Positions 4,302 through 55,591 of a DNA stretch of 64,000 nt are shown in pieces. Source of the DNA: Planctomycetaceae bacterium (GTDB taxonomy: Bacteria > Planctomycetota > Planctomycetia > Pirellulales > Pirellulaceae). Below the pieces are notes generated by a model. The model was given only the letters and a program-made list of their open reading frames with translations. It was not told the DNA's origin and ran no database searches. Both the position numbers and the translations under genes were made by a program. The first letter of the stretch is position 1. Every line of letters begins with the position of its first letter. The stretch lies in assembly GCA_027487485.1 (NCBI GenBank), contig JAIYDN010000096.1, positions 62,001 through 126,000 on the forward strand, read 5' to 3'.

Positions 4302-4402
4302 GCTTAGATGAATTTGTTTTCAGGACCATTTCGCCCCCCGACCAATTGGCGGCAACCGCCATCTCATTAGTTGTCGCTGTTCAGGGTATTAGAGCATGAG
4401 TG

Positions 4403-4420
4403 CCATTTCATGGAGTACGA
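4403..4420 (+). repeat. 18-bp interspersed repeat, copy 1
   Basis: The sequence CCATTTCATGGAGTACGA is identical to positions 25748-25765, and the match extends imperfectly leftwards (GAGTGCC versus GAGTACC). It contains the small palindrome CCAT-TTC-ATGG. Both copies lie in intergenic repeat clusters rather than genes. Confidence 0.6.
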
Positions 4421-4440
4421 ATCAAGCAGTACCCGTTCGG

Positions 4441-4553
4441 CTTCCGTCGAGCTCGTCTCGGCGGGGCGCACAACTGAAAGCTACCATACTCACCCCTGCT
4501 CATCTGTCGCTTCCGTCGAGTTTATCTCGGCGGAGCGAACAACTGAAGGCTAC
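4441..4553 (+). repeat. REP-like repeat dimer, copies a and b
   Basis: Two direct 44-bp repeats (4441-4484 and 4510-4553) separated by 25 bp. They differ at 6 of 44 positions. Each holds a hairpin with stem CCGTCGAG / CTCGGCGG (one G-T wobble) and a 5-nt loop, followed by GCG.ACAACT. A second dimer with the same layout lies at 53968-54079 beside a RAYT-type transposase. Copy b and copy d there match at 42 of 44 positions. Confidence 0.75.
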
Positions 4554-4651
4554 TTGTTGCTTCCGATTGAGATGAACCCAATGGAAAGTGTCGGTTTGAT
4601 GCACGTGAACTGCGCGAGAATCGTATCGTTCGATCTGGCCCGAGAACAACC

Positions 4652-6247
4652 TTACTGGCCAGCAAACTTCGAAACGGCCTTGTGTTTGCCGATCAAGGTA
4701 ACGTCCAACTCGGTGGGTAGATCGACCACGGTTTCGGCATCGCTTCGAATCAGTACCGGCTTTACTACCGAATCTGGTGGTATGCCTGTTACGGCGAAAT
4801 CGTTAACCACTTCCATAATACATGGCTGCAGTTCTTCCAGCATTTCCGCGAGCGCGCTGATTACCGGAAATGTGCTGGACGTATCATGTTTTCCAAGAGC
4901 CTCTATTCGCCCGAGAATACGATCCTGAGAAACAACCGGAAATCGCACTTGCCATCGCTCACTGCTGTCTGGCATCTTGTTCTTGTGCCAACTTGCGTGA
5001 AATCCCTCGTGCAACCAAGGCATATTGAGATCCAAACTGATTTTGGACAAATTGTGTTTTTCTGCGAACTCAATCATCGTGTCCCAAACGGTTTCCCATT
5101 TTCTGGAGCCTTGCAAACGGACCGTTTGCTGCCGAATCCGGTCGTCTGACACGCCACCTCTCGCAACAAGCGATTTGGAGAAATTGATCCCGCGTTTAAC
5201 AACCAGCTCACACTCAGCAAAACCGAAAACCCTAGTGACCACCAAAGAACCAACAGCAAACAGCAAAGTCATGACCGAAATCACGTCCGACTGAAAAACA
5301 ACTCCCATTACTGCTCCGCTAGCCGTCACAAAACTTAGCAAGGTAATTACGCCCACAAGCCAGCGATTCTTGATCCCAAATCGCATCAAGTTGTGATGGA
5401 TATGTCCACGATCGACAGTAAAGACGCTTCGACCAGTCAACTTGCGTCGAATGATTGCCATGGACGAATCGAACAAGGGGATCGCCATCAAAACGATGGG
5501 AACTGCAATAGAAACAGAGTTGGAATCGCGTATCCAACTTCGCATCGCCAGCACCCCAAGAATCAAACCGACCAGCATACTGCCAGCATCCCCAAGAAAG
5601 ACTTTCGCGGGAGGAAGGTTAAAAATCAAGAACCCCAACAGAGATCCGGCCATGGCGGCTGCAATCATGGATTCCATGTGATTGCCTGTATACCAACCGA
5701 TGGCAGATAAGGCAGAAAAAGAGATCCAGCCGACTGAGGAACACAAGCCATCCGCACCATCGATCAGATTGACCGAATTGATCGAAAGAAGTAGCCACCC
5801 CAACGTTACAGGAACAGCAAGCAGGCCAAGATTGGCATGAAAGCCTAAAAACCCAAATGAATCGATCGTGAATCCGAAGGCAATGATCGATAGGCAAATA
5901 AGGATCTGACCAAACAGCTTCTGGCGTCCACGCAAAGTGAATCGATCATCCAAGGCTCCAAGCAAGACGATCGCAATCGCCCCGATCGCAAGCGATACTG
6001 CTTCATAGAATCGTTCTTGAAAAATACCGTAGTACTCTTTCGCCCCAATCAAAAAAACTGCCACGGTGGCAAACAGACTAAATAAAATTGCCGTCCCACC
6101 GCAAAGTGCTATCGGTTCGCGGTGAAGCTTACGATGGCTGTCCGGGTGGTCCACCATCCCTATTCTCAGGGCAAGCTGCCTTGCCAAGGGTGTAATCACC
6201 AGCGAGCACAAAAACGCAATAGCGACAGCAACAAGTGGGTAAATCAT
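4652..6247 (-). CDS. WecA/MraY-family polyprenyl-phosphate GlcNAc-1-phosphate transferase with extra C-terminal domain
   Basis: A 531-residue integral membrane enzyme of the PNPT family, which transfers a sugar-1-phosphate from a UDP-sugar to undecaprenyl phosphate and so starts O-antigen, teichoic-acid-like or exopolysaccharide synthesis. Family motifs are present: DD at residues 100-101 (LLGALDDR), NSVNLIDGADGL near 157-168, FLGDAGS near 217-223, and HIHH at 282-285. About ten hydrophobic segments fill the first 345 residues. Residues 350-531 form a soluble extension not found in canonical WecA. The start chosen is ATG at 6247, because the 37 residues upstream in the longer frame are not hydrophobic or family-like and TM1 begins right after this Met. 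An 8-bp palindrome lies about 110 bp upstream. Confidence 0.88.
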   Translation of the reverse strand: MIYPLVAVAIAFLCSLVITPLARQLALRIGMVDHPDSHRKLHREPIALCGGTAILFSLFATVAVFLIGAKEYYGIFQERFYEAVSLAIGAIAIVLLGALDDRFTLRGRQKLFGQILICLSIIAFGFTIDSFGFLGFHANLGLLAVPVTLGWLLLSINSVNLIDGADGLCSSVGWISFSALSAIGWYTGNHMESMIAAAMAGSLLGFLIFNLPPAKVFLGDAGSMLVGLILGVLAMRSWIRDSNSVSIAVPIVLMAIPLFDSSMAIIRRKLTGRSVFTVDRGHIHHNLMRFGIKNRWLVGVITLLSFVTASGAVMGVVFQSDVISVMTLLFAVGSLVVTRVFGFAECELVVKRGINFSKSLVARGGVSDDRIRQQTVRLQGSRKWETVWDTMIEFAEKHNLSKISLDLNMPWLHEGFHASWHKNKMPDSSERWQVRFPVVSQDRILGRIEALGKHDTSSTFPVISALAEMLEELQPCIMEVVNDFAVTGIPPDSVVKPVLIRSDAETVVDLPTELDVTLIGKHKAVSKFAGQ

Positions 6248-6647
6248 CGGTAGTGGTTCTAGATGAGGTTCGACGTGTTCCAATTGGCACAAGGAGGGCC
6301 TCCCGGAACGTGCGAATTGCCTGAAGCGAAGAATCGCGTCAAAGCAACTGACTCTCATGATCCTCCGTCCAGGATCATTCGTCTAGATCTCGCTTGATGA
6401 AGTAATCGTAAATCTCAGCCGAACAATCGTGGGAAATGGAATAATCCCTAGATCTTACCGTGGGACATTTGGGGGGGGCCGCTGCCTAACCTTCCTAATC
6501 GGATTCTTCGGCGGAAGGGCGTCAGCATACTTTTTCGCTCCACCCAATTTCAACCAGCATGGTATCGTTTGATATGCTACTGCAACTTCGTCTTGCTAAG
6601 TATGCCAGACACAGGCCATTTCTCGCACCAGTACGAACACCCCCAAC
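6248..6647. other. Divergent intergenic region between transferase and decarboxylase
   Basis: This 400-bp region must hold the promoters of two divergent genes. It contains a perfect hairpin at 6357-6378 and a run of eight G around 6470. No reading frame in it looks coding; I could not assign -35/-10 boxes with confidence. Confidence 0.5.
6357..6378. promoter_or_regulatory. Perfect 8-bp palindrome upstream of the WecA-like gene
   Basis: ATGATCCT - CCGTCC - AGGATCAT is a perfect inverted repeat with a 6-nt spacer, about 110 bp before the start of the minus-strand transferase gene. It could be an operator or a leader hairpin. It has no T-run, so a terminator is unlikely. Confidence 0.35.
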
Positions 6648-8246: not shown

Positions 8247-8320
8247 CAATCCATCTCGGATGTTGAGTGCCGTTGGACACAATCCCAACGGCGCCTGCCT
8301 TGTTATTGTTGAATCGAAAT

Positions 8321-8412
8321 GAATATCGAATTTCGAACAAGGAATGTCGAACTCCGAATAAACTCGCTAGCTACTTCGCTATTCGAAATTCCTTGTTCGG
8401 CGTTCGATATTC
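8321..8412. repeat. Long imperfect inverted repeat (GAATATCGAA family)
   Basis: Left arm 8321-8345 and right arm 8388-8412 pair at 22 of 25 positions; both outer ends read GAATATCGAA and the inner parts CGAACAAGGAAT. The roughly 42-nt centre keeps partial TCGAA-rich symmetry. It looks like a dispersed palindromic or MITE-like repeat. It lies between convergent genes, so it could also work as a bidirectional transcription barrier. Confidence 0.65.
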
Positions 8413-8425
8413 AAAACAGTTCTTA

Positions 8426-25709: not shown

Positions 25710-25749
25710 GGTACTCGAACTCGATCACCGTTTTTCGAGTACGAGTACC
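25710..25749. repeat. Hairpin of the GAGTACGAG repeat family
   Basis: Left arm 25710-25724 (GGTACTCGAACTCGA) pairs with 25735-25749 (TCGAGTACGAGTACC) at 14 of 15 positions. The motif resembles the 12-bp-stem hairpin at 46814-46846, which acts as a terminator stem. Confidence 0.6.
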
Positions 25750-25765
25750 ATTTCATGGAGTACGA
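25748..25765 (+). repeat. 18-bp interspersed repeat, copy 2
   Basis: Identical to 4403-4420 (CCATTTCATGGAGTACGA). It begins at the end of the preceding hairpin. Confidence 0.6.
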
Positions 25766-33144: not shown

Positions 33145-33789
33145 TCAAATCCTCATTTCTTGGCAATCAATAAAAAACGACCGTGCCTCTGCTGGAAAGA
33201 GACTACTAGCGACCCGCATTTTACGAGCAAAGTCGCTTTATCCCAAGACCCAAAGGGAATCTATTCCCCTTTTTGGATTGTTACAGTTCGGTGCGGGCAA
33301 CCTAGCCACAAGGTTCCATCACGGCGCGTTAGCGCACCAAACTTGTTGTGAAAGAGGGCTAAAGGCCAACCTTCGCATTGCGCTTATCTGGTTTCTGGAC
33401 AAGTTCTGTATGGAGTGACTTTTCATCGATGGAAATGTCCTCTGCAGGCCATGTCTTGGTTCTCAACGTTCTTCAACTTCAGAACGAACTACTGCTATCC
33501 TTTTCCCTTTTCCTAATTCTTAACGTTCCCGGAGCAACGGCTGTGTCTTACCTAGCCCGCCTCACCATAACTGCGCACCTGCCTTACCCTAGATTGCAAC
33601 GTCTTAGCCTGGAGCGACGGCATAGTAGGGCCACGGCAGACAGGTTGATGTGACGCCTTTGGTCAACAGCCTAATCTCCACGCCCGTGAACGTATTCGAT
33701 CTATTCTATGGATCATGACAGGTTCGACTTTACGAGAGCCTGTGAAAGGAAGTTGAACTCGTAAGAAGGCTTGGGGTTTTTAGGAATGC
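33145..33789. other. 645-bp intergenic gap without a recognised gene
   Basis: The longest gap in the window. It contains a terminator-like hairpin around 33252-33275 (AAAGGGAA / TTCCCCTTT followed by T's). A 91-codon plus-strand frame (33378-33653) and one overlapping dapA (33053-33418) look spurious: no ribosome-binding site and no recognisable motif. Base composition is ordinary. An unannotated small RNA cannot be excluded. Confidence 0.5.
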
Positions 33790-43962: not shown

Positions 43963-43996
43963 TTCGCAGCAGATCATTGCCTTAGATTGTATTCGT

Positions 43997-44036
43997 AAAA
44001 AGCCTGATGGATTTCAAAACCTATCAGGCTTTTTTT
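43997..44036 (+). terminator. Rho-independent terminator after gap
   Basis: AGCCTGAT (44001-44008) pairs with ATCAGGCT (44023-44030), followed by TTTTTT and preceded by an A-run, so it could also work in the other direction. Confidence 0.88.
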
Positions 44037-44189
44037 CTGGACAATCTCGACAAGTCGCCTCGAAACACTCGGATGTACAGCAAGTCCAGCAAAGCACTGG
44101 ATTGAAACAAGAACGCAATCGTTCTATATTGAGGTCGGTTTCGTTGCGAATGAAAAATCTCGAACAAGCAATATGCGTTAGGACTGGCT

Positions 44190-50737: not shown

Positions 50738-53122
50738 CTACTCCTCCAACGCCATGGCCCCAAGCGTGGAGTCGATTGCCTGAACGGCTGCCGTTTGTAT
50801 CGTAAACTCCATGGGAAGCAACGAGGCTACGCTAGCGGATTCCGCATTCAAAACCGAGCTATTGGGTGCGATTCTGCTGACCGAGATGGGCTTGGAACTT
50901 ACATCTAACCGGATGGAAACACCGTCGCTTTCGCGTGGCCGTCGCAGCCCAAGCTCGTCGCATAGAACCGCGATCAAATCCCCTAGCTGCTGCCAGGCGA
51001 CCTCCGCTTCGGCGATCTGAGGCATCGCGTTGGCGCTGGCGAGCATCAGCCCCACCCCTGCAGCCCCCGCGAACAACAATTCTTTCAGGGAAGCAAACAC
51101 AAGTACGGCGGAGCCACCAAAATCAAGCGGCATCATGATCACAGCAATCAACGGTGCAAACAATACGCCCGCAGGAGCTAAGCCTGTCAAAAGCCGTCTC
51201 GACATCGGCATGTCGGTCCAAACCTGGCGTGTAAACTGATCTAGCTGGACATCGTCCAGCAGGATATTGCTCTCATTCTGAAAGCGTTCGATAGCGCGCT
51301 GGCATGCAAGTTTGACGCCCTGCACATGAGCATCCTCACCATGCTGTCCAGTGCCGAACCGGTCCAGTTGAAGCGCACCTGACTTGTCGAACTGCCTGAG
51401 ATGCTGCATCAATTGGTCGGAAGTCACCACGCGCCCTGCCTCCCCCGACGACCATCGTGAACGGATCCAATTGCTAACCGATGTCGCCTTGCCCGTAATC
51501 CATTCTGTTCCACGCATCCATTCTGGAAATGATGCAAAACTGGTTGCCTTCGCGATCGTGGTCTTGGTGGAATCCGCGACACGACTGGCCCATCGACTGG
51601 GTCTGGCCCACCACGGCGCAGTCCGTTCCAGGGAATTCGAAATCTGCTGAACGATTTGTTTGGATGCCTGAAGTCGGACTGTAGGTTGATTCGAACGTTT
51701 CGCAGTCTCCGAAGAAAACTCGTAACATGCTTGCGCAATGGTCCCTTGAAGTTCGAAAACAATGCGTTTTAATTCACGCTCGCGCCGCTGCAGGACACTG
51801 ATGCCTTCACGAACAGCAGTCTGTAACTGCTGAAGCGTGGATTGAAGCAGCTCATTCGCCAAGCTGCGTTTGTCGAGCTGGCTACCTAGGTTTAACAACC
51901 AATCGGCAGTGGCAACCGGCTCCGGTGGCTGAGCTCGCCCCTTTTGATCGATGCGGAAAAACAACGGCAGCGGCTGAAGCGTCGGGACTTTGTAAAAGCT
52001 AGGCGGCTCGGGAATCTTCTCGCGATCCAGTGGACCATCAAATCCATAGGCCATGTACTGCCGATCCAGCGCATGATGTCCGTATATCTTCTGTATCTCG
52101 TCGCTGATCTGCTGGGTGGTGTACTTTCGAGGAACTCGATTGACCGCCACAATTTGACGGACGGAGGACATTTGCTGTTGCAGCAATCGCATCAATCGAC
52201 TGACCGTTTGATCATGAATCGCATTTGCCGGCAAGACGACGACAAACGCCGAGCAAAGAGGTGCAGCTGCACGAAGAACTCGCCAGCGAAGCTCCGAAAT
52301 CGACTGAGCCTGCTCGTGGATCAACTGCACTTGGCCAGAGACTATCGAATCGGCCAAAGGGTCTGGCAGCAAACCCGTTTGCACATCCGGACAGTCCATG
52401 ATGGCAATGCCCCAACGATCCAGTTCTGGATCGGTCGCAACCAAGGGGATCTCAATCGTCGGGCGAATCCGCTGGATTCCCTCCGCATCGACAAAGGCCC
52501 TCGCATTCGTGTCATTGTACTGAGCAGCCGCAGCATCGGCCGAATCCGCTAACAGCTCGCAATCACAACCGAAAATCGATCGAAGCCGTGCTTGCACAAA
52601 AGCCCAGACATTCGCGTCACGTCGCCACGATTCCGGCATCCACAAAACAAACCGGTGAGTTCCTTGCGCGTTCGCGGAACCAACCAAAATACGTTGGCGA
52701 TTGGCTTCGGACAAAAAGGTAGAAACCAACGAACTCTTGCCAGCATTCAGCAACCCCATCACGGCCACAATCGGGGAATCAGGAGCATCGCAGCAAAGCT
52801 TTGCCTGCTCTAAAAGCCATCGAACATGCAAAGATTGGTTTTTAACGAGCGACGTTGCGGGATATTGAGTTGCATCATCCTGAGCATTTCGGTTCCACGG
52901 ATTATCCAGGCTGCTTGCCAATTCAGTCGACAGGGATGGATGGTTCGTTCTTAGGAGTTCTCCGAATTGGCTGCGGTCGAAAAGTTCAAAAAACGAAAGA
53001 TCTTTAGACGGCGATGTGTTCAGCGTAGCGAAGGAACATTTACCTGTTCGGTCGCTCAGTTGAGTCTCAAGCAATCCAATCCATTCGGAAACTCGATGCG
53101 GATGAACTCGATTTTCGGACAC
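50738..53122 (-). CDS. Dynamin-like large GTPase with C-terminal membrane segments
   Basis: A 794-residue protein (GTG at 53122). G1 P-loop is GLLNAGKSS (residues 123-131), G3 is IMDCPDVQTG, and G4 reads VNRVPRK in place of N/TKxD. A long helical middle (about 420-620, LQTAVREGISVLQRRERELKRIVFEL) and two hydrophobic hairpins near 650-710 (LAPAGVLFAPLIAVIMMP; LLFAGAAGVGLMLASANAM) resemble bacterial dynamin-like proteins that remodel membranes. The N-terminal 100 residues are unassigned. The frame is open to TTG at 53242, but this would overlap the divergent gene; no clear ribosome-binding site decides. Family membership is inferred from architecture. Confidence 0.75.
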   Translation of the reverse strand: MSENRVHPHRVSEWIGLLETQLSDRTGKCSFATLNTSPSKDLSFFELFDRSQFGELLRTNHPSLSTELASSLDNPWNRNAQDDATQYPATSLVKNQSLHVRWLLEQAKLCCDAPDSPIVAVMGLLNAGKSSLVSTFLSEANRQRILVGSANAQGTHRFVLWMPESWRRDANVWAFVQARLRSIFGCDCELLADSADAAAAQYNDTNARAFVDAEGIQRIRPTIEIPLVATDPELDRWGIAIMDCPDVQTGLLPDPLADSIVSGQVQLIHEQAQSISELRWRVLRAAAPLCSAFVVVLPANAIHDQTVSRLMRLLQQQMSSVRQIVAVNRVPRKYTTQQISDEIQKIYGHHALDRQYMAYGFDGPLDREKIPEPPSFYKVPTLQPLPLFFRIDQKGRAQPPEPVATADWLLNLGSQLDKRSLANELLQSTLQQLQTAVREGISVLQRRERELKRIVFELQGTIAQACYEFSSETAKRSNQPTVRLQASKQIVQQISNSLERTAPWWARPSRWASRVADSTKTTIAKATSFASFPEWMRGTEWITGKATSVSNWIRSRWSSGEAGRVVTSDQLMQHLRQFDKSGALQLDRFGTGQHGEDAHVQGVKLACQRAIERFQNESNILLDDVQLDQFTRQVWTDMPMSRRLLTGLAPAGVLFAPLIAVIMMPLDFGGSAVLVFASLKELLFAGAAGVGLMLASANAMPQIAEAEVAWQQLGDLIAVLCDELGLRRPRESDGVSIRLDVSSKPISVSRIAPNSSVLNAESASVASLLPMEFTIQTAAVQAIDSTLGAMALEE

Positions 53123-53229
53123 GTCGCGTGTTCCCCCCTTCGGTTTGTTTCCAACTCCTCTTGAATAATCAACATTTGTACGGATAGTAGAACATCCTTC
53201 GTACTCAACCGGAAGACGGATCCAGCCCG

Positions 53230-53778
53230 ATGCAACAGCCAAGAACCATAACCTCCAAGCAACTGACCTTTTTTTTCATTGTTCTGATCTTGGGGCCCGT
53301 CGGTTGCGGGCTGCTTTTGTATTTCTACACCGGCAAAATGCCCGAGCCCCCTTTGGATGCTCTTGTGCGTTTCGAAACGAAGTGGATTTCGCCAAAGAGC
53401 CCGGAAGAATCGCCCCGGTTGGTCCCATGCATCACCATTAAAAACACGACCGAAGCAACCTGGAAAAGCCTGTCCATTGAATTGAATGAGCAGTTTTTTT
53501 CCAGCGAACCTAAGGGGATTCCTGCTGGGCAGACCTTGTCCATTCCCTTAGAAGCTTTTGTGGCAAGAAATGGCAGCGTCCGATTTCCGGTGGGCGACCG
53601 TGTGATCGAACTGGTGACCGTCTTCGCTCAGATTCCTTCGGGCGCGCGAGGCGTCAGCGAATTCACCGTCCCAGCCAAGCCCCCCGCAAAGCCGAAAGAA
53701 AATGGCGTGCAGTCCAAAACAATCCAAGAAGAGCCTTGGATCGAAAGAGACAATTTGAGAAAAAACGGATCGGCATGA
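53230..53778 (+). CDS. Membrane-anchored hypothetical protein
   Basis: A 182-residue protein with one N-terminal membrane helix (LTFFFIVLILGPVGCGLLLYFY, about 12-33), then a beta-rich domain of about 110 residues (VRFETKWISP, PCITIKNTTEATWKSLSIELN, GDRVIELVTVFAQIP) and a Pro/Lys-rich tail. It resembles an immunoglobulin-like fold outside the membrane, but no family is recognised. Divergent from the GTPase gene with about 107 bp between starts, so the two may share control. Confidence 0.65.
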   Translation: MQQPRTITSKQLTFFFIVLILGPVGCGLLLYFYTGKMPEPPLDALVRFETKWISPKSPEESPRLVPCITIKNTTEATWKSLSIELNEQFFSSEPKGIPAGQTLSIPLEAFVARNGSVRFPVGDRVIELVTVFAQIPSGARGVSEFTVPAKPPAKPKENGVQSKTIQEEPWIERDNLRKNGSA

Positions 53779-53967
53779 CCTGCTAAAGCGGTATCGTGCC
53801 CAAGGAATCTCGGCGATGCGCAACACGCAAACCTCGGAATGCCCGTTTTGATGCGATCGTTTACCTAAAGCGGTCGCACTTTTATGCGTTAGGGCTACGA
53901 TCGCAATTCAGCTAGAAGCAAATCAAGCGCAAAGAATGCGAAGTCCATTCGGCCGGCAACAGTCCCG

Positions 53968-54079
53968 CTTCCTTCGGGTTCAGCTCGGCGGGGCGTACAA
54001 CTGGCTGCTACCATGCCCACCACTGGCCTGCTTCGCTTCCGTCGAGTTTATCTCGGCGGAGCGAACAACTTAAAGCTAC
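53968..54079 (+). repeat. REP-like repeat dimer, copies c and d
   Basis: Two 44-bp direct repeats (53968-54011 and 54036-54079) separated by 24 bp. Copy d matches copy b at 4510-4553 in 42 of 44 positions; copy c matches copy a in about 35 of 44. The hairpin CCGTCGAG-N5-CTCGGCGG is intact in d and eroded in c. It lies 217 bp before the transposase start. Confidence 0.75.
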
Positions 54080-54150
54080 AAGTAGCATGGAACGCAAATG
54101 GAACCTCAATCTGATAAATGGAACCTTTTTAGTAACCAAATAATTGCAAT

Positions 54151-54179
54151 GCGAAGGTGGGCCTTGTGCCCTCCTTCGC
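54151..54179. repeat. 12-bp-stem hairpin next to the transposase element
   Basis: GCGAAGGTGGGC (54151-54162) pairs with GCCCTCCTTCGC (54168-54179) at 11 of 12 positions around loop CTTGT. It sits 13 bp outside the left terminal repeat. It could be a subterminal hairpin recognised by the transposase, or a terminator-like barrier. Confidence 0.5.
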
Positions 54180-54192
54180 TACCACCCAACGT

Positions 54193-55591
54193 AGGGACAC
54201 AGCATTTATTCGGGTGGGTTGTTGCAATCTGAATTTGGATTCCTTATTCTGAATCGATAATTCTTGTATCGGTTCTTTCGACGGAGTGAATCATCATGAG
54301 ATTGTCGCGGGCGGAGATTTTTGATCCCTCGGAGATTGTTGCGGTCCATGCTATGGCCAGGACGAACCGACGGTGCTTCCTTCTCGGAGATGACCCTCTC
54401 TCCGGAAAGAACTTCGATCACCGAAAACGTTGGATCGAAGACAAATTGCAGCTCCTCGCGTCCGCGTTCGGCATCGATTTGCTAGCCTTCGCCTGCATGT
54501 CCAATCACATCCACTTGGTTCTGCGTTCCAGGCCCGACGTTGTCCAAACCTGGGACGATACCGAAGTCGCTCGGCGGTGGTGGACGCTCTGCCCGAAGCG
54601 AAAAGTTCATCGAGAAGTGGATGGGGAAAAACTGTGGATTCCTGTCGAACCCAACGAATTTGACCTTAATTCGATTCGAAATGATCCTGTGAAATTGGCT
54701 GATATTCGCAGGCGATTGAGCGACATATCTTGGTGGATGCGGCTGCTGTGTCAGTATATCGCAATGCGAGCGAATGGTGAAGAAGGTGAGGGACTCGGCA
54801 GGTTCTGGCAAAGCAGATTCAAAGCGGTCCGAATTCTGGACGAGGAAACTCTGCTGGCGTGCGCGGCCTACGTCGATTTGAATCCGATTCGCGCTGCATT
54901 GGCAGAGACGCTAGAAACCAGCGACTACACATCCGTTCAGCGGCGAATCGCATCTCTTGCTTCCGATGCGAAAGAGGATCTCAATGCCGAAGATGCCTCG
55001 GTAGATTCGCGTAGTAATCGCCCGCGGGCCGATGAATTCTTGAGTCCTGTTGCGATCGATGAGCGGAACGATCCGATAGGGCCTCTACCGAGTCGAAGCA
55101 AGAAGCGTTGCAGCGACAAAGGCTTTCTGGCAATGACCGAAGCGGACTACTTGACGATCCTAGAGTGGCTGGCTCGCAACACCGTGACTGGCAAACGAGG
55201 TTCGACGCCTTCTGATGCCCCTTCGATATTCGATCGACTTGGTATCGACAGCGCAGCATGGTCACTGATGGTGACGAATTTCGGACGAAGTTTCAAGAAC
55301 GTGGCTGGCAAGCCTGCCAGCATCGCTGAAGCGAGAAGCTTGAAGACATGTCGCAGATTCTACTGCAGCCGGGCGTAACCGAATCCGGGTTCTGAACTGC
55401 ACTGAAAACCAAGTAAGCTCGGGTAGCTGATAGGTCGATGCTGCGCAAATCAGCTGATTTTTTCGTGGAAACATCTAATTCGTGCGTTGACCTATCGACG
55501 AAAAGTGTTGACGAACGCGATGCACTGCAAGCCCATCGGCACTCCACCCAAATGGGTGTGTGCGGACAACCTGATCAAATGCTGTGTCCCT
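54193..55591 (+). mobile_element. Candidate RAYT element bounded by 15-bp inverted repeats
   Basis: AGGGACACAGCATTT at 54193-54207 is the exact reverse complement of AAATGCTGTGTCCCT at 55577-55591. The two copies enclose the Y1-type transposase gene and about 1.4 kb in all. IS200/IS605-type elements normally lack terminal inverted repeats, so these may instead be repeats recruited on both sides, or true ends of a single-gene unit. No target-site duplication could be identified. Confidence 0.5.
54296..55378 (+). CDS. REP-associated tyrosine transposase-like protein (RAYT, Y1/HUH family)
   Basis: A 360-residue transposase of the Y1 HUH superfamily. The metal-binding motif is HIH at residues 71-73 within FACMSNHIHLVLR. 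The family C-terminal block is GRFWQSRFKAVRILDEETLLACAAYVDLNPIRA (about 168-200), as in planctomycete RAYT-like proteins. Tyr154 in LCQYIAMRAN lies about where the nucleophile is expected, but many relatives have no tyrosine there, so activity is uncertain. Residues 200-360 are an extension unlike IS200 TnpA. ATG start following CGACGGAG. REP-like hairpins lie just upstream, which fits a RAYT. Confidence 0.85.
   Translation: MRLSRAEIFDPSEIVAVHAMARTNRRCFLLGDDPLSGKNFDHRKRWIEDKLQLLASAFGIDLLAFACMSNHIHLVLRSRPDVVQTWDDTEVARRWWTLCPKRKVHREVDGEKLWIPVEPNEFDLNSIRNDPVKLADIRRRLSDISWWMRLLCQYIAMRANGEEGEGLGRFWQSRFKAVRILDEETLLACAAYVDLNPIRAALAETLETSDYTSVQRRIASLASDAKEDLNAEDASVDSRSNRPRADEFLSPVAIDERNDPIGPLPSRSKKRCSDKGFLAMTEADYLTILEWLARNTVTGKRGSTPSDAPSIFDRLGIDSAAWSLMVTNFGRSFKNVAGKPASIAEARSLKTCRRFYCSRA

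Follow-up and report, generated by a model that had tools for sequence, protein, structure and literature searches.

A REP/BIME-like intergenic repeat family and a TIR-bounded Y1 transposase side by side in a Pirellula-group genome

REPINs, as reportedly described by Bertels and Rainey in 2011, are said to consist of two inversely oriented REPs with a spacer. REPs and BIMEs carrying a GTAG tag are short palindromes, mostly intergenic and present in tens to hundreds of copies, in the available parts of two accounts (PMC3733652, PMC2817692). REP families are reported for the planctomycete R. baltica (Di Nocera et al. 2013, PMC3733652), an organism also named there as having a plethora of TIRYT genes and flanking repeats. 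TIRYTs are characterized, in the accessible text of that survey, by a class-2 Y...NP motif, a long C-terminal part, TIRs of the GGGGWSAS type and the absence of a flanking REP (PMC3733652). The passages available from Di Nocera et al. leave open the origin of transposase-less REP families and the recognition of REPs by TIR-type enzymes (PMC3733652). The repeat family considered here, called R, is probably a non-autonomous intergenic family of the REP/BIME class, and the transposon bearing the neighbouring Y1 gene, RAYT-A, a separate element that shares with it the tolerant gaps between genes. A first-pass annotation knew of no planctomycete counterpart with this consensus. No paper on the R consensus was found in the literature available, but REP families are reported for R. 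baltica, known here by description and not by sequence (PMC3733652).

The DNA analysed, referred to as the window, is a 64-kb stretch (contig C5:62001-126000) of G000, a Pirellula-group genome of 7.49 Mb in 114 contigs. Its + strand carries four copies of R in two head-to-tail pairs, namely a (4440..4485, loop CTCGT) followed with a step of 69 bp by b (4509..4554, loop TTTAT), and c (53967..54012) followed with a step of 68 bp by d (54035..54080). Scores with model R1, a covariance model built from 83 R copies, are 73.1, 73.3, 53.4 and 71.3 bits for a to d, c being the most diverged. The two pairs of 44-bp repeats announced by the first-pass annotation are all present, with spacers of 25 bp (a-b) and 24 bp (c-d), and its figure of 42/44 identities between b and d over ~49 kb is exact. 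Copies a and b agree at 38/44 positions, and c agrees with the others at 34-35/44; in the rest of the window the best 44-mer reaches only 25/44 against b, where three shuffled windows give 24-25. Just behind b, a possible inverted and diverged partner (4558..4587, - strand) forms, by eye, the hairpin TTCCATTGGG-TTCAT-CTCAATCGGAA; it is not detected by model R1 at E<=1, and reading of the sequence finds similar hairpins trailing other R copies. The window holds further repeats, a 32-bp one containing CATTTCATGGAGTACGA in two copies that are 88% identical (4389-4420 and 25734-25765), and two long imperfect inverted repeats with short loops (8320-8413 and 43984-44047).

The R unit spans ~45 bp, GCTTCCGTCGAG-YNYRY-CTCGGCGGRGC-GNACAACT-GAAAGCTAC, and is made up of a wobble hairpin of 11 pairs and, behind it, a conserved tail of 17 nt ending in CTAC, which reads GTAG on the opposite strand. 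Hairpin, T-G wobble and the tail GCG.ACAACT had all been noticed before and are borne out, and conservation extends further, to GAAAGCTAC. The loop is TTTAT, TTCAT, CTCGT or CTTGT in 74 of 87 full copies, the terminal CTAC is almost fixed, and the conserved GTAG lies 13 nt from the hairpin base (unit positions 29-41). Of 82 distinct copies, 76 retain the T-G wobble, which favours one strand. As DNA, the TTTAT form folds at -9.7 kcal/mol on the R strand (z -2.8) and at -7.5 on the complement (z -1.6); as RNA, the values are -18.9 (z -3.9) versus -12.3 (z -1.0). The CTCGT form folds as DNA at -7.8 kcal/mol with z -0.8, no better than shuffles, which counts against the REP/BIME reading. In the alignment of R copies, 98.0% of stem cells are paired, against 97.0% in shuffles, and covariation in the stem is thin, as only the outermost pair is changed on both sides and 171 of 500 shuffles reach that count. 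Therefore, the hairpin is evident from the sequence and covariation adds little. Loop positions 1 and 4 covary as T..A or C..G in 86/87 copies, the distance between them being too small for ordinary RNA pairing; pairing is not claimed, and two old lineages could also explain the pattern. Other identities of the unit were considered and dropped. R is open in one frame (ASVEFISAERTTESY), and a coding origin was set aside because the frame through a and b (4371-4928) overlaps a 568-aa ORF on the opposite strand (4652-6358). An intrinsic terminator was discarded on reading the sequence, since no T-run follows the hairpin, and an attC-like site was rejected by eye on the box sequences.

R is not confined to its two sites in the window. 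Allowing up to 3 mismatches, G000 contains 88 copies, compared with 0 for a reversed control pattern, and these fall into 47 clusters in which all 41 neighbour pairs within 1 kb are on the same strand. Units are found alone or in head-to-tail arrays with steps of 67-83 bp, mostly 68-69, and such arrays hold 45 of the 88 copies. With ORFs called by length alone, 36 of the 47 clusters lie outside ORFs of at least 110 aa. R is thus mostly intergenic and often paired, the two points that the first-pass annotation wanted checked. Of the 11 clusters inside ORFs, nine fall in possibly spurious frames of 116-169 aa; the frames of the other two measure 268 and 275 aa. Diverged partners in inverted orientation are also recurrent: model R1 places 23 of them near R at E<=2.4e-4 (36 sources), and with a letter pattern that is more stringent, 12 of 59 array ends have one immediately downstream, a further 4 ends being cut off. 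In the broad sense of REP and BIME, R is a short palindrome in many copies, mostly between genes, in a compound arrangement with inverted units.

Outside G000 the family is patchy. By the strict pattern, three of the 27 genomes in the genus contain R (88, 14 and 2 copies), as do 7 of the 241 in the family. Model R1, applied to 20 chosen genomes (12 of the 27 in the genus and 8 outside), finds R-like matches in 14; as only the 150 top candidates in each genome are scored, its counts are lower bounds, and inverted partners may be among them. Within the genus they are 124 in G000, 33 in G023, 21 in G010, 16 in G020, 5 in G009, 4 each in G026 and G018, 2 in G015 and 1 in G024; in other genera they are 84 in G216, 65 in G146, 37 in G144, 36 in G171 and 1 in G145. 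The remaining scored genomes, G025, G001, G005, G143, G170 and G209, have zero matches. The R-type units of G216 and G146 come as inverted pairs that enclose a long, nearly perfect hairpin. The core of this hairpin (L170, L334) is GAATCGCC/GGCGATTC, and a similar one is seen in G171 (L167). A bias towards one replication strand is not apparent by eye in G216, where the listed R copies are mixed in strand along the chromosome.

The placement of R relative to genes raises the alternative of a functional RNA. Among the 33 clusters whose 5' neighbour is an ORF 200 aa or longer, R is co-oriented with that neighbour in 27 (p = 3e-4; the 14 clusters excluded have a smaller frame in 10 cases and none in 4), while the gene 3' of the cluster is on the same strand in 11 of 27. 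On the REP/BIME reading, R would be transcribed as part of the 3' UTR of the gene upstream, and its hairpin could act on the end of that mRNA. It is a further step to regard R as mainly a 3' UTR hairpin under selection, spread by duplication or recombination and not by transposition. The strand agreement, the wobble pairs that favour one strand in the TTTAT form and the conserved tail speak for such an element, and so do the longer flanks that some clusters have in common, which indicate that duplication of larger DNA occurs. Yet the number of model matches varies from 0 to 124 among the scored members of the genus, several clusters have, by eye, flanks unlike the rest, no U-run stands behind the hairpin and the window has zero matches in Rfam. 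Altogether, a primarily RNA-level role is unlikely.

Beyond the second pair lies RAYT-A, a class-2 Y1 (HUH) transposase gene of TIRYT-like type encoding 360 aa (54296..55378, + strand); the ORF begins 217 bp beyond d, exactly where the first-pass annotation had put a Y1-type frame. Its family scores are weak and below both curated cut-offs, with 20.7 bits for Pfam Y1_Tnp (cut-off 23) and 38.8 for NCBIfam REP_Tyr_transpos (cut-off 80). RAYT-A displays the HUH and Y...NP features of class-2 Y1 transposases, with H71, H73, Y192 and N196 invariant in 6 sequences and the tyrosine motif YVDLNP. A PDB sequence search returned no match for either transposase. The gene is bounded by its own TIRs, the left one AGGGACACAGCATTT (54193..54207, + strand) and the right one AAATGCTGTGTCCCT (55577..55591, - strand), which match in inverted orientation at 15/15 positions, compared with scores of 6-12 for 8 shuffles of the upstream stretch. 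These ends are unrelated to REPs and of the GGGGWSAS type, although with one difference (the first G), since the TIR starts AGGGACAC. R stays outside, the dimer ending 113 bp from the element. The interval contains HP2, a hairpin stretch (GCGAAGGTGGGCCTTGTGCCCTCCTTCGC, 54121..54182, + strand) with a 77% identical inverted copy at 33345-33406. HP2 is also found near R clusters L062 and L074 and in G020 (L122), and a similar hairpin adjoins a group-B transposase on C6 (L038).

Ends of this kind are widespread among the RAYT-type genes compared. Similar ends, GGGACAC..., are recognizable by eye in the 83% identical paralogue of RAYT-A on C87 and in relatives from G026 and G024. In a sample of 18 genes that excludes L043 and, from G000, groups B and C, TIR scores of 11 exceed all 8 shuffles, the highest of which is 12 (the window element, L149, L150, L246, L244, L252, L251, L247, L201, L189 and L190); the shuffles were made for the window element alone, with flanks longer than those of short RAYTs. 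Several different TIRs are involved, none of them like R. The other seven genes (L032, L151, L153, L155, L193, L202 and L250) score at or below the shuffles, and ends of the TIR kind are visible by eye in all of these except L153. One of them is paralogue L032, in which the TIR starts GGGGACAC. In the complete genome G001, loci L128-L144 comprise two sets of six and eleven near-identical long RAYT-type genes, which look like recently active elements. Nearly all of them lie embedded between tandem arrays of a ~20-bp repeat of their own (GGTGAGTGTCCCCAGT; CAAAAGGTGGGTGCCTNCTATT); L131, one of the six, has no upstream array.

There is a spatial tie, at least, between R and RAYT-A. Of 15 RAYT-A loci or remnants, 6 have R at a distance of up to 1 kb, compared with 1 of 20 other RAYT loci (p = 0.03), the former obtained from 27 DNA matches by removing 6 that belong to other RAYT groups and merging the remaining 21, the latter gathered by hand among the matches listed with the weakest omitted, and distances being taken from mapped R positions. 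Without one partial R, the figures are 5 of 15 and p = 0.06. Chance placement would give 6 of 15 with a probability of 3e-8 if uniform and of 0.004 under an assumed 8-fold intergenic correction, and 5 of 15 with 1e-6 and 0.02, respectively, in an analysis that took 18 other RAYT loci where the direct comparison took 20. R even abuts RAYT-A sequence at C111 and C3 (about 352847-352910), which speaks against a clean separation. In G009, both strict R copies are ~385 bp upstream of a RAYT-A relative, in an orientation opposite to that in the window. The tie extends to other TIRs: among 13 intergenic cases, 10 have a motif from one of several TIR groups no more than 300 bp from R, where 38% is expected (p = 0.005), after 3 matches inside ORFs were dropped and with matches that are not all independent. 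Two loci show how close the contact can be. At L246 in G216, a short RAYT element begins directly behind the central hairpin of a BIME, and at L048 in G000 that same TIR is fused to a truncated R tail.

This proximity could reflect a classical REPtron in which the adjacent RAYT-A recognises and disperses R. Besides the window site, C80 of G009 and the 6 of 15 loci or remnants, the distribution among genomes can be cited in its favour. Most genomes that carry R also have RAYT-A relatives; R-rich ones other than G020 hold relatives or fragments, and R-like units are commonest where the relatives are close. In the genus, the six genomes with a best RAYT-A identity of at least 69% (G000, G023, G024, G026, G010 and G018, the matches in G010 and G018 being fragments) all have R-like matches, although these may simply be closer kin. 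No R-like match is found in G025, G001 or G005, where identity reaches 66% at most. The relation between R count and presence of RAYT-A is confounded by kinship and by incomplete genomes. Several observations argue against a REPtron. The TIRs of RAYT-A are perfect and unrelated to R, which is on one side only and outside the 15-bp repeats, so that the gene is not placed between two inverted REPs. Among 98 sources scanned, some overlapping and several cut by contig ends, no RAYT, and hence no RAYT-A copy, has R on both sides. Around the 83% identical paralogue on C87, ~1.5 kb of sequence is free of R. RAYT-A relatives are present in G025 and G001, which have 0 R-like matches, and relatives of 68-76% in G024 and G026, which have 1 and 4. 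G020 has 16 R-like matches and no RAYT-A match above 47% identity, in an assembly that is 77% complete. A REPtron built on RAYT-A is thus quite improbable, all the more so as the orthologous site discussed below has R and no visible transposon end. From the REP/RAYT interpretation of the first-pass annotation, the abundant, mostly intergenic and often paired hairpins survive; RAYT-A as the cognate RAYT, with its own TIRs and R outside, is not supported on present evidence. The simplest reading of the co-location is that of shared landing zones, possibly with hairpins as targets, and cross-mobilisation between R and RAYT-A is less favoured.

The sister genome G020, ~87-94% identical to the window genome at the sites compared, shows how such loci change. 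Its locus L122 aligns with window positions 52469-54011 at 91.5% identity over 1545 bp and contains one R where the window has two; the right flank matches from R through HP2 (80% over 149 columns) and then diverges. With two copies against one between matching flanks, the array at the c-d site has changed in length by one ~68-bp unit, in either direction. No transposon end is seen in the 21 bp beyond HP2, where the contig stops. The transposon at the c-d site looks like an event separate from R, its absence in G020 being judged from these 21 bp. At the orthologue of the a-b site, the flanks are 92% and 87% identical and 758 bp of other sequence replace 299 bp, with no R found by the model at E<=0.05. 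At the sites compared, a clean pair of empty and filled sites for R was not seen, which counts against R as a mobile REP/BIME family.

If RAYT-A does not move R, another Y1 enzyme may do so in trans, and one candidate is a short canonical RAYT, RAYT-R (C97:208829-209527). G000 and G020, which both bear R, have versions of it that are 97% identical, and G216, an R-rich genome from another genus, has five copies at 79-80%, three of which have an R-type REP within ~150-700 bp. By comparison, loci L208-L235, mostly from other genus genomes and representing the best one or two per genome, as throughout the sampling of short RAYTs, reach at most 40% identity to RAYT-R. However, the RAYT-R copies inspected carry their own TIR, AAAGGGGTCAGGCCTCTTTG, the RAYT-R-type element at L246 sits within a BIME like an insertion, and the flanks taken from the G000 and G020 copies contain no R, the G000 copy (L237) ending 53 bp from a contig break. 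Mobilisation by RAYT-R or by another Y1 enzyme is therefore rather improbable. Two further candidates were examined and rejected. The group-B transposase on C95 has three R alongside, but its close copies on C6 and C3 have none. The other was the canonical RAYT on C71, which exceeds the NCBIfam cut-off. Among the matches listed, seven other genus genomes (G002, G010, G013, G014, G016, G017 and G023) have a RAYT above that cut-off, and strict-pattern R occurs in 0 of the 7; the two of them scored with model R1, G010 and G023, give 21 and 33 matches. Since none of the RAYT-type ends resembles R, and RAYT-R also has its own TIR, no dedicated transposase is identified for R among the candidates compared.

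Collectively, R and RAYT-A look like separate mobile DNAs that use the same intergenic gaps. On the REP/BIME reading given at the outset, R and TIR-type transposons would both insert in tolerant intergenic spaces that are rich in hairpins, and the RAYT-A transposon would have reached the c-d site separately from R. Dispersal of R over long distances may proceed by a single-strand event of the Y1/HUH type, catalysed by a putative enzyme. It is tempting to go further and to consider R a REP superfamily with a design of its own, with a strand-specific wobble hairpin, a 13-nt linker, a GTAG tag and head-to-tail growth by ~68 bp, mobilised or seeded in trans by TIR-type Y1 transposases that use BIME hairpins as landing pads. 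This bolder proposal has a low probability; if it is true, each of the two systems, REP-type and TIR-type, feeds the other in Pirellula and related bacteria. Whatever the enzyme, one genome group combines a REP-like family that has been amplified, numerous Y1 genes of the TIR type and a close sister genome, so that gain of R, tandem growth and co-location become traceable site by site. More generally, a RAYT-like gene beside a pair of REPs is not in itself proof of a REP/RAYT system.

Compared with described systems, R is best called a variant within the broad REP/BIME elements that departs from the strict GTAG-REP spacing and from the REPtron layout. With GTAG REPs and BIMEs, as far as the available parts of the accounts go, it shares dimers and clusters, a GTAG at one end and inverted partners with variant stems (PMC3733652, PMC2817692). 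It differs in the distance of the tag from the hairpin, 13 nt instead of the 0-2 nt that the accessible text prescribes for GTAG or GTGG 5' of the hairpin (PMC6006769), and, unlike GTAG REP/RAYT systems as portrayed there, no transposase was found between R units on both sides in 98 sources. The CGTC-tagged REPs, in the portion of the survey at hand, resemble R in a stem of 8-9 bp, a loop of 4-5 nt and no association with a transposase; in R, however, CGTC is inside the stem and not a terminal tag, and stem positions 1 and 2 lack the A-T pairs that CGTC REPs are described as having there (PMC3733652). RAYT-A corresponds to the TIRYT description (PMC3733652) and to subclass 2.1, with a length like that of 2.3, in the available text of Quentin et al. 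(2018, PMC6006769). Its relatives in G001 depart from TIRYTs as described in that text by being embedded in tandem arrays of short repeats. Finally, the inverted pairs of G216 and G146 are REPIN-like, whereas G000 differs in its frequent same-strand arrays and diverged inverted partners.
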